From Deltaproteobacteria bacterium (GTDB lineage: Bacteria > Myxococcota_A > Polyangia > Nannocystales > Nannocystaceae), in the NCBI GenBank assembly GCA_003696955.1, contig RFGU01000026.1, positions 1 to 64,000 on the forward strand: a stretch of 64,000 nt of DNA, read 5' to 3'. Positions within the stretch are counted from its first letter, which is position 1, and each line of letters starts with the position of its first letter. The position numbers were made by a program, and so were the translations under genes. Below, piece after piece: positions 10,994 to 14,946 of the stretch. The notes below the pieces were generated by a model that did no database searches, was not told where the DNA came from, and was given only the letters and a program-made list of their open reading frames with translations.

Positions 10994-13312
10994 CTACGAC
11001 CTACGGGCCCGGCGGTCCTGGAGGATCGCCCGAAAGTAGTACGTCACCTTGACGATGAGTTCGTGATAGGGGGAGGAGAGGGCCTGGCTTCCGAACGGCA
11101 CCTGGGTCCGATAGACGACGAAGATGTCGCTTCCGGGCAGGTAGCGTGCACGTAGCCGGGACTGCAGGCCGAAGCCCTCGTTGCCGGGCGAAAGGTCGAG
11201 CCGCACCATGTTGTCGATGGCGACGTTGGGGGTAAACGCGATGGTCAGCGACCCGTTGGCGTAACCGAAATCGAAGGACTGGTCGCGCTTGCCCACGTAG
11301 CCCACCACGTGGTCGTAGCCGCCGTCGATGGTGACGTGCGGGCCCATGCGGATCGTTGCGCGTACCGATGGACGGTGGATGATCCCATCGAAGGCCTCGC
11401 GTACGCCATAGCCCACCCGAAACTGAACGGGTCGTCTTCCGCCGAGGCGAAACGATGCGTTCTGGGTCATGCCGCTGTAGAGCCGCGCCGGGACCTCGTA
11501 GCCGAAGAGGACGAACGGCATCTGTACGTCGTCGCGCAAGTGCCCGACGGAGTAGTTCAGTTGGGCGCCGGCCCGCCAGACGAAGGAGATGCGCCCCGAC
11601 ACCGTTTGGGTCAGCAGGCGCCCGTAGTCGGGCGAAACGTCGGCCGCGTACGTGGGCCCGATGGCGATTTCACGCAGCCCCAGGTCGCGGGGGCGCGGCA
11701 CGAAATCGATCCCCGCCTCGTGACGTCCGGTGCCCGGTCGCCGGTAGAATCCGAGGGGCGCTTCGAAGTTTCGCGTGCTGTACAGCCACGAGGTGCGCGG
11801 TCGTACGTAGAGGCCGCGGTACGTCACGCTGGCGTAGGCCGTGGTGCCCATGGTCGTGCGCGCGGGCGATGCGGGTGCGGCGAGGGCCGAGCCCGTCTCG
11901 TCGAAGGTGCCCGTCGATGCAGGGTGTCGCACCCAACTGCCGGCGACGAAGCCATATCCCTGTACGCGTCCGTCGCGGGAGATGAGCTGGGCGTCGATGC
12001 CACCCGACGCCGAGTCCGATGCATGGTCGCCGAACACATAGTTGCCGAGGGCCATCACGCCGACGTTCACGGTGTCGGTGGCCTGGACCCGAAGCCGCCC
12101 CACCGTCGTGCTGGTCGGGTCGGCGTCGGGAAGGCCCCGGACGGGGTCCTCCTTCGAGCCGAGGGTCTGGACGTGGAGCACGCCGAAGGAGACGGGGCCT
12201 TCTCGCCCGTAGCCCTTGAGGCCTCCGGCGATGGCGACCGGCTTGCGGTCGACGAGCCCGATCCGCCGCGAGAAGAAGAGTTGCGCCTGGCCGGGGACGC
12301 CGAAGTTGAAGGTGTCGAGCCCGTTGATGAAGAACGGGCGTCGCTCGGGGAAGAAGAGGGGGAAACGGTCGCTCGCCACCTGCACGTTGTCCACCTCGAC
12401 CTGGGCGAAGTCGGTGAGCAACGTGCCTTCGACGTAGGAGGCGGTACCGAGCTGGACGCGCACGTTGCCCCCGGCCGCCACGTTGGGACGCTTGCGGGGG
12501 TCGGCCGAGAAGGTGGGGCGAAAGTCGGTGCGACCGAGCACGTAGGGGACGAATTCGATGGCGCGCCCGCTACGGATGCCTTCGATGCCCTCGAGTACAC
12601 CGAAGTTGCTCGCCGACGCGGGGCTCGCGGGGGGCACGATGAGGCGCCAGTCGTAGGTGGCGTTGCGGTCGGCGTGGTCCCGGGAGATGTCGAACCCCAT
12701 GTGGGTGCTCTGGGTACCCCGCACGCCCAACGTGGCGAACGGAATGCGAAACTCCGCCTGGTAGCCCGTCGCCGTCCGCCGGGTCTTGGCTTCCCAGACG
12801 CCGTCCCACTGGCCGAGAAAGACCCGGCCGTCCTCGAGGGCGAGCGAATCGATCTGGGCTCCGGCGGCGTTGATCCCAAATACGTAGGCGGTGCGCCGGT
12901 CGTGGAGCGGATCGATCTTCAGGACGATGTCGTCGTCGTCGTAGATCCCGAAGCTGTCCCGTCGCAGGGTCCGCACGCGAATCGATGCGGGGGGCATCTC
13001 GACGTACACGAACACGTAGAGCGCACGGTCGTCGTAGGCCACCTGGAATGCCGTGCGCACGGGGGGGTGGCCGCCGAGTTCGGGTTGTCGTTCGACGAAG
13101 CGGTCGTCGACCGGCGCACGCCGCCACACCTCGTCGTCGGGGCGCCCGTCGATGCGGACGCGGGTGCGGGCGCGTGTCGCCCGGTAGGTGCGTTCGTAGG
13201 CATGGAGCGCGTCGGCCGATGGGCCGGCAACCGCCGCGGGCGTTGCGCTCGAGATCGTCGCCACAGCCGCCGCGCAGAGGGCGGCCCGGGCAGGGGGGGC
13301 GGAGACGAACAC
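10994..13312 (-). CDS. DUF5916 protein: N-terminal carbohydrate-binding-like domain plus outer-membrane barrel
   Basis: An exported protein of 772 residues starting at GTG. An Ala-rich signal peptide (about residues 1-30) is followed by a CBM9-like sandwich (about 45-210; RIDGRPDDEVWRRAP, then YDDRALYVFVYVEM and the DDDDIVLKIDP segment). The rest fits the DUF5916 barrel region, with the typical FPERRPFFINGLDTF and FFSRRIGL motifs around residues 325-350 and many alternating strands to the aromatic-rich end (VKVTYYFRAI). The family is common in Bacteroidetes and myxobacteria; it is presumed to be in the outer membrane and its function is unknown. The gene stands alone, facing away from the structured gap at 13313-14010. 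Confidence 0.88.
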   Translation of the reverse strand: MFVSAPPARAALCAAAVATISSATPAAVAGPSADALHAYERTYRATRARTRVRIDGRPDDEVWRRAPVDDRFVERQPELGGHPPVRTAFQVAYDDRALYVFVYVEMPPASIRVRTLRRDSFGIYDDDDIVLKIDPLHDRRTAYVFGINAAGAQIDSLALEDGRVFLGQWDGVWEAKTRRTATGYQAEFRIPFATLGVRGTQSTHMGFDISRDHADRNATYDWRLIVPPASPASASNFGVLEGIEGIRSGRAIEFVPYVLGRTDFRPTFSADPRKRPNVAAGGNVRVQLGTASYVEGTLLTDFAQVEVDNVQVASDRFPLFFPERRPFFINGLDTFNFGVPGQAQLFFSRRIGLVDRKPVAIAGGLKGYGREGPVSFGVLHVQTLGSKEDPVRGLPDADPTSTTVGRLRVQATDTVNVGVMALGNYVFGDHASDSASGGIDAQLISRDGRVQGYGFVAGSWVRHPASTGTFDETGSALAAPASPARTTMGTTAYASVTYRGLYVRPRTSWLYSTRNFEAPLGFYRRPGTGRHEAGIDFVPRPRDLGLREIAIGPTYAADVSPDYGRLLTQTVSGRISFVWRAGAQLNYSVGHLRDDVQMPFVLFGYEVPARLYSGMTQNASFRLGGRRPVQFRVGYGVREAFDGIIHRPSVRATIRMGPHVTIDGGYDHVVGYVGKRDQSFDFGYANGSLTIAFTPNVAIDNMVRLDLSPGNEGFGLQSRLRARYLPGSDIFVVYRTQVPFGSQALSSPYHELIVKVTYYFRAILQDRRARRS

Positions 13313-13441: not shown

Positions 13442-13541
13442 AAACCCACAAAAACGAAGTTCCCTGCGTAGGATCGTGCGCACTAGGCCTGGGGCCCGGG
13501 AGCCTCATCGTGTGGGGGGAAGAAAAAATCCCTGGCAGGGC

Positions 13542-13887
13542 CCCAGTGGCCTGGGTATAAAGGCCTCGTCGCGTGAGGCTTGGCTGGCCGGGCCCCCATC
13601 CCCCCTTCCGCATCCTACCGGCCAGCCAAGCCCCCGACCTTTATGCGCGCGGTAGGTTTCGTTGGAATTGGTAGATAAGCCGGCGAGGACCGGGGCACAC
13701 GCACCGAACCAAACACGCGCCGGCCCGACGAGGCGAGGTCCCCCTGGTCATCCCCTCGCGCTGCGCACACGCGCACTCGTCGGACCGGATCCCGACCTTG
13801 GTTGTCCCCGCGGACCGGCATGCCGGCCGCTGTCGTGGGTTCGACACCGGTCGTCGTTTCAATTCCGGCCGCTGGGTCCATTTTTTT
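13542..13887 (+). ncRNA. Candidate structured non-coding RNA, about 345 nt, novel
   Basis: No gene fits here, yet the sequence folds into nested perfect stems. The ends close on each other: CCCAGTGGCC (13542-13551) with GGCCGCTGGG (13867-13876), 10 bp with one G-U pair. Inside, ATAAAGG (13557-13563) pairs with CCTTTAT (13638-13644) and encloses a 14-bp hairpin (13578-13591 with 13618-13631; 26-nt C-rich loop). A second unit is a tight three-way junction: CCGACGAG (13725-13732) with CTCGTCGG (13776-13783), holding GCGAGG/CCTCGC (13733-13738/13754-13759) and TGCGC-ACAC-GCGCA (13762-13775). The 3' end runs into TTTTTTT (13881-13887). The A6 run at 13523-13528 would serve as a T-run for the other strand, so the direction is uncertain; the G-U pair in the closing stem favours plus. 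RNase P, tmRNA and 4.5S signatures are absent. Confidence 0.55.
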
Positions 13888-14010: not shown

Positions 14011-14946
14011 ATGGACCCGACCACAGACCTGCGCAGCGCGCTGCTCTACGCCCTCAAACCGGCGAGCTGGAGCAAACTCGCCGTTCCGGGGCTGCTCGGC
14101 ACCGCCGTCGGGGTCGCCTCCGCGGGGCGGATCGATCTATCGGCCGCCGCGTTCGGGTGGGCATACACGGCGTTGCTGCTCGTCGGCATCGTGTTGCTCA
14201 ACGACTGGGCCGACGTGGACGTCGATGCGCTCAAGCGCAGGATGTTCCCCGAAGCCGGCTCCCCCAAGACCATCCCAGATGGGATCCTGTCGCGGCAGAC
14301 GGTCTTTCGTCTCGGAGCTGGCGGCCTGTTGGGGGCTTTCGGGACGTGTGTCTGGCTCGCGGGATGGTACGGGCGAACCGAGATCCTGGCGGTCGGGGGG
14401 CTGGGCATCGGCCTGTTCGTGGCCTACAGCCTGCCGCCGGTACGGATCAACGCACACGGCGGCGGGGAGGTGCTCGAAGCCCTCGGCGTCGGGATCGTGC
14501 TGCCCACCTACCACGCCTTGCTGCAACACGAGGGGCTCGCCCTCGAGCACCTGCTGCCCTTCGTTCCGTACGCGATGTTGTCCATGGCCAGCGCCATCGC
14601 CAGCGGTCTTGCCGACGAGCGCAGCGATCGGCGCGGCGGCAAGGTCACGGTGGTCACCACCTGGGGCAATCGGCGGGCGCGTCGAGCCACCGAGGCGGCG
14701 TGGATCGCCGGCACGCTGGCCTACGGACTGTTGCCGCCCCTCGCTCCCGAACTCGTCACGCCGTGGGCGGCCTTCGCCGCGGGCGGCACGAGTCTGTTCT
14801 TCGGGCGCACGATGCTGGCGTGGAGCGACGCGGCCACGCCCGAGGCCTGGGGCCCCTTGCGACGATACAAGGGCGCACTGCATCGGGCGATCTGGGGCAG
14901 CGGCGCCGTCTTGGCCCTGGGCATCGCGTTGGGCGCCGTGTCGTGA
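14011..14946 (+). CDS. UbiA-family prenyltransferase
   Basis: An integral membrane enzyme of 311 residues that attaches a prenyl chain to an aromatic or other acceptor. It carries both Asp-rich motifs of the family: NDWADVDVDALKRR (near residues 68-81) and DERSDRRGGK (near 205-214), which bind the diphosphate through magnesium. About eight or nine hydrophobic helices surround them, and the YSLPPVRI segment after the fifth matches the family. The frame is open far upstream through the candidate RNA, but the similarity and the ATG at 14011 mark the real start. The acceptor (menaquinone, chlorophyll-like or other) cannot be told from the sequence. An unknown gene follows after 64 bases. Confidence 0.92.
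   Translation: MDPTTDLRSALLYALKPASWSKLAVPGLLGTAVGVASAGRIDLSAAAFGWAYTALLLVGIVLLNDWADVDVDALKRRMFPEAGSPKTIPDGILSRQTVFRLGAGGLLGAFGTCVWLAGWYGRTEILAVGGLGIGLFVAYSLPPVRINAHGGGEVLEALGVGIVLPTYHALLQHEGLALEHLLPFVPYAMLSMASAIASGLADERSDRRGGKVTVVTTWGNRRARRATEAAWIAGTLAYGLLPPLAPELVTPWAAFAAGGTSLFFGRTMLAWSDAATPEAWGPLRRYKGALHRAIWGSGAVLALGIALGAVS

Follow-up and report, generated by a model that had tools for sequence, protein, structure and literature searches.

A predicted hairpin small RNA with a covarying stem beside DUF5916 genes in Nannocystaceae-like Myxococcota

Results

The window, by which we mean the whole stretch of 64,000 nt that was analysed, contains a DUF5916 / CBM9-like gene for a predicted surface protein on the minus strand (10994..13312; Pfam) and a UbiA prenyltransferase gene on the plus strand (14011..14946; Pfam UbiA, E = 3e-20). 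In the literature searched on DUF5916 with the outer membrane, no description was found. A preliminary description had proposed that the gap between these genes is an undescribed structured RNA of 345 nt. Judged by sequence comparison, the gap does encode a previously undescribed structured small RNA on the plus strand, divergent from DUF5916, supported by covariation among its relatives and unmatched in Rfam, but its predicted length is about 75-80 nt (13568 to ~13645) and not 345 nt. Its lower stem GTCG/CGAC (13568-13571/13635-13638) is part of a 20-pair stem, and its upper stem of 15 bp (13577-13591/13618-13632) encloses a 26-nt loop. Within this loop lies the C-rich stretch CCCCCCTTCCGCATCC (13600..13615, plus strand), which is near-invariant in the orthologue alignment and is a candidate pairing seed.

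Minimum free energies (MFE) were compared with those of shuffled sequences on both strands, a check suggested in the preliminary description, where the stems of the gap had been considered unlikely by chance. For the hairpin (13566-13645) this was borne out, with z = -5.6 and none of 200 shuffles equally stable. The whole 345 nt, however, was only weakly better than its shuffles (z = -1.9 on the plus and -0.2 on the minus strand), and the region 13566-13887 had z = -1.7.

Ten orthologues were then assembled by loop pattern search followed by inspection. The compensatory changes that had been proposed as a further check in relatives are present, since 8 of the 20 pairs in the hairpin stem changed on both sides; in one genus, for instance, the basal GTCG/CGAC has become GTTG/CAAC. 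Overall 99.5% of the stem cells are paired, none of 500 shuffles reached the values of pairing and compensation of the stem, and shifting the partner arm by 1-3 columns abolished the covariation signal. The 198 stem cells comprise 184 Watson-Crick pairs, 13 G-U pairs and no A-C pair, and therefore the fold is selected on the plus strand. This settles the strand of the hairpin, which had been left uncertain, and a minus-strand RNA was rejected on these wobble pairs. Covariance-model scores are 70-100 bits on the plus strand and at most 34 on the minus strand. The loop CCCCCTTCCGCATCC is the same in nine genomes, and the tenth (G024) has one T fewer. With a stem held by compensatory change and a promoter-like element of its own, the hairpin counts as a candidate independent structured small RNA.

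The promoter-like element lies on the plus strand and consists of a -35 box CTGGCA (13532-13537), an 18-nt spacer and a -10 box TATAAA (13556-13561), and the orthologues carry CTACCG-N18-TATA at the matching position. The combination CTACCGCA-N11-TTTGCTATA has a single genomic occurrence, at the small-RNA locus, in each of seven genomes. Since the -10 box stands ~6 nt ahead of the stem, transcription is predicted to start close to 13568, at the base of the stem. The 3' end is conjectural, because in most genomes the hairpin is followed by a short U-tract (3-5) or by none.

The other structures that had been pointed out in the gap can all be seen in the sequence, and relatives constrain how they should be read. 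The supposedly perfect 10-bp stem closing the gap has one G-U pair and is not conserved in the congener. As its 5' arm (13542-13551) is unconserved and lies upstream of the predicted start, in the spacer of the plus-strand promoter, a whole-gap RNA closed by this stem was rejected. The 7-bp stem starting at 13557-13563 overlaps the -10 box and is likewise not conserved in the congener, and CGGGG/CCCCG, also unconserved there, lies in or beside an insertion that the congener is missing. The three-way junction (13720..13788) has z = -2.9, and the congener G001 keeps its fold with one compensatory pair, its other changes falling in unpaired bases, but it is kept only there. Covariation of the junction is weak, coming from two sequences, whose consensus fold chooses its own compensatory pairs, and it was counted for one pair only.

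The preliminary statement that no RNase P, tmRNA, 4.5S or known riboswitch signature is visible held: the covariance models of Rfam 15 gave no match at gathering score in the window, and the best sub-threshold result (E = 0.56) was miRNA/lncRNA noise. Known RNA families and tRNA/tmRNA were searched as candidates and none matched. In a DNA search the congener copy was 72% identical, and the short matches in other genomes of the same family were all to the hairpin. With the covariance model, the RNA was found in 10 of 29 genomes of the Nannocystaceae-like family of Myxococcota, and no carrier was found outside this family among 331 genomes of the phylum, in a search that scored limited candidates per genome and that very diverged copies could escape. 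An exact scan for the loop in 84,980 species genomes returned seven family members and five unrelated matches scoring 14-22 bits, and no copy of the RNA was found in viral contigs. Named carriers include Paraliomyxa miuraensis (SMH-27-4) and 'Nannocystaceae bacterium'. The hairpin represents a small RNA family that is new and absent from Rfam, although its general kind is known, and it is smaller than first proposed.

In seven genomes DUF5916 is the gene closest to the RNA on its promoter side, and in two more one small gene intervenes, so that the linkage extends to 9 of the 10 genomes and to four genera. UbiA adjoins the RNA in the window's own genus only; gaps upstream of UbiA, where homologues had been expected, are therefore not the common setting, and the neighbour across genera is DUF5916. 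Of the 15 genomes that possess the close DUF5916 gene, 10 have the RNA, compared to none of the 14 that lack it; these counts ignore kinship. G008 has the RNA apart from DUF5916 and without the ECF element described below, and it retains the loop. Genomes with a close DUF5916 gene and no RNA have no ECF element in the stretches examined (that of G005 being short), and G008 alone therefore separates the element from the RNA.

On the minus strand, CCGGAA-N14-GGTGTC (13843..13868) forms a putative ECF-sigma-type promoter, which has a predicted start at ~13835 and points through the hairpin gene to DUF5916. Its plus-strand form GACACC-N14-TTCCGG, or a close variant, lies 50-300 nt downstream of the hairpin at constant spacing in 9 of 10 genomes, and GAC-N17-TTCC occurs exactly once in the 400 nt downstream in all nine DUF5916-linked loci (0.02 expected). 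The spacing GGAA-N17-GTC is that of ECF-sigma promoters. Across the family genomes CCGGAA-N14-GGTGTC has 78 occurrences compared to 11 for the reversed pattern, a difference to which composition may add; it often directly precedes genes for lipoprotein-like or secreted proteins, and in two genomes an ECF sigma gene. The orthologous ECF sigma gene has an ECF-type element upstream, in the same place, in 9 of the 10 RNA-bearing genomes (the exception being G008), with a spacer of 17 nt (18 in G001) and 0.0015 expected per 520 nt region. The element beside the T7 has a GGAA -35 and a GTC -10 about 17 nt apart, as shared with the region upstream of the sigma gene, and no consensus RNA structure was found in the GACACC-N14-TTCCGG stretch across orthologues. 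As the element is common to the region upstream of the ECF sigma gene, has fixed spacing and lacks RNA structure, it was taken as an ECF promoter toward DUF5916. We infer that the same orthologous ECF sigma factor uses it.

The T7 at 13881-13887 had been read as a terminator at the 3' end of the RNA. It is present, yet the orthologues argue against this reading: the tract beyond the ECF element is either a T-run or an A-run, depending on the genome, a U-run ends the region in four genomes, and G024 has no tract; the position has 76% A+T in an 8-base bin. Lying just upstream of the ECF -35, the T7 is probably the AT tract of the minus-strand ECF promoter, likely an UP-type element, and not a terminator. 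The case shows that the AT tract of a promoter can be mistaken for a terminator.

Some further observations concern these elements. In nine genomes (L191-L198 and L200, not L199 of G008) CGGAA-N17/18-GTC stands ~350 nt before the WLYRIT codons of the sigma gene and is likely an ECF promoter under autoregulation. Several lipoprotein-like genes (L168, L169, L179, L180, L184) have similar sites ahead of them. G011 and G019 (L028, L029) have a genus-specific conserved block, AACGTTGAGAACGGCATC-TCCTGCGCCGTC, between the hairpin and the ECF element, just before GACACC. In G015 (L086, upstream of DUF5916) the promoter box CTGTACCGCA...GTTTGCTATACGG of the small RNA is kept, and neither the hairpin nor the ECF -10 is present, as though a deletion had removed them.

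Discussion

The reading that we tentatively prefer, with somewhat less than even confidence, is an antisense regulator: a hairpin RNA from a sigma-70-like promoter would pair with the leader of DUF5916 and lower its output until an ECF sigma factor is active. The ECF promoter (13868-13843, minus strand) would give DUF5916 a leader of ~520 nt running through the hairpin gene, and the hairpin RNA would be encoded on the opposite strand to, and inside, this predicted leader. The small RNA would be made in non-inducing conditions, and its loop would be the first part to pair with the complementary leader. This pairing, perhaps reinforced by convergent transcription, would lower the output of DUF5916 until the ECF sigma factor becomes active. 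In CopA/CopT and RNAI/RNAII, an antisense RNA encoded in cis makes loop-to-loop contact with the leader of an mRNA or primer. The hairpin RNA would resemble these in being encoded opposite a predicted leader to which it would be fully complementary. It differs in being chromosomal, in lying beside an ECF-type promoter, in having a loop that is near-invariant across genera, and in being kept in one unlinked genome.

An antisense RNA that acts purely in cis has no need of a fixed loop, since the two strands of such a pair can change in step, and the near-invariance seen here suggests that the loop has another partner. Because the loop is invariant also in G008, in which the RNA and DUF5916 are not linked, there is perhaps trans action too, in which the loop may bind sites rich in G (GGAAGGGGG) on other mRNAs. 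However, a conserved trans target was not found in the loop-complement searches: with the two patterns searched, no gene recurs among the complementary sites, and at the unlinked DUF5916 of G008 the match to the loop is at most 7 bases, as by chance. Two loci in genomes without the RNA (L095, L096; G003, G013) have a nine-base loop match, CTTCCGCAT, upstream of DUF5916, which may be chance (P ~0.03 each). In G009 only, two near-identical gene starts (L152, L158) carry GCGGAAGGGGGTGTGTG-ATG, which is the complement of a portion of the loop.

The small RNA could instead act only in trans, through a C-rich loop resembling an anti-Shine-Dalgarno sequence, its position opposite the DUF5916 leader being incidental. 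We consider this possible but rather unlikely. Near-invariance of the loop while the stem covaries, and its retention in G008 without the linkage, speak for such an RNA, and the exposed C-rich hairpin loops of Staphylococcus aureus RNAIII are complementary to G-rich ribosome-binding sites, which they are known to bind (PMC2837412). Against it stand the lack of a recurrent gene among loop-complementary sites and the fact that the RNA is linked to DUF5916 in all but one of the ten genomes, across four genera. The exposed C-rich loop is common to RNAIII and the hairpin RNA; RNAIII, however, is long, comes from another phylum and has several hairpins, whereas here there is one hairpin, for which no recurrent target was found.

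It is improbable that the hairpin is the 5' domain of a longer plus-strand RNA of ~320 nt (13568-13887), with the junction as its middle and GACACC-N14-UUCCGG plus the U-run as its 3' domain and terminator. The junction as kept in G001, the terminal U-run in four genomes and a terminator-like match at 13864-13876, of which ~0.7 would be expected in the region, are consistent with such an RNA. Yet the middle part measures 50-300 nt and is unrelated between genera, the 3' element has no consensus structure, an A-run replaces the U-run in other genomes, and GACACC-N14-UUCCGG has a counterpart upstream of the ECF sigma gene. Far less credible is a cis element of the DUF5916 mRNA leader itself, on the minus strand; the ECF-type promoter would transcribe the hairpin region, but the wobble pairs fit the plus strand only and the hairpin occurs unlinked in G008. 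Just as hard to credit is a sponge RNA that binds protein instead of base-pairing, or a hairpin site acting at the level of DNA. An invariant loop would equally be expected of a protein-binding site, but the invariant part of the plus-strand loop has no GGA-type CsrA site and the G-U wobbles point to RNA and not DNA.

We also compared the hairpin RNA to Pxr of Myxococcus xanthus, a stem-loop small RNA whose first loop is required for function (PMC5684412). Both are myxobacterial stem-loop small RNAs. Pxr, reported from Cystobacterineae, has three stem-loops, a sigma-54 promoter and pxrR/pxrK as neighbours (PMC5684412, PMC5568312), whereas the hairpin RNA has one conserved stem-loop, a sigma-70-like TATA-type promoter, DUF5916/UbiA neighbours and Nannocystaceae-like hosts. 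With architecture, promoter, neighbours and hosts all different, identity with Pxr was rejected.

Conclusions

No small RNA of Nannocystaceae is described, by title or abstract, in the literature searched, and a covariation-supported RNA family is hereby added to a myxobacterial family for which we found no such description. The presence of the RNA in the named strain Paraliomyxa miuraensis SMH-27-4 makes it open to testing, and the arrangement, in which an ECF-type promoter and the hairpin RNA face each other over a predicted leader, offers a clear regulatory proposal that can be tested. In a more far-reaching form, which we regard as improbable, the locus would be a lineage-specific stress switch, in which the leader of a surface-protein gene driven by an ECF sigma factor is opposed by a constitutive hairpin RNA on its other strand, whose one loop would act in cis on this leader and in trans on additional mRNAs. 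If true, this would tie the activity of one promoter to a wider post-transcriptional network.
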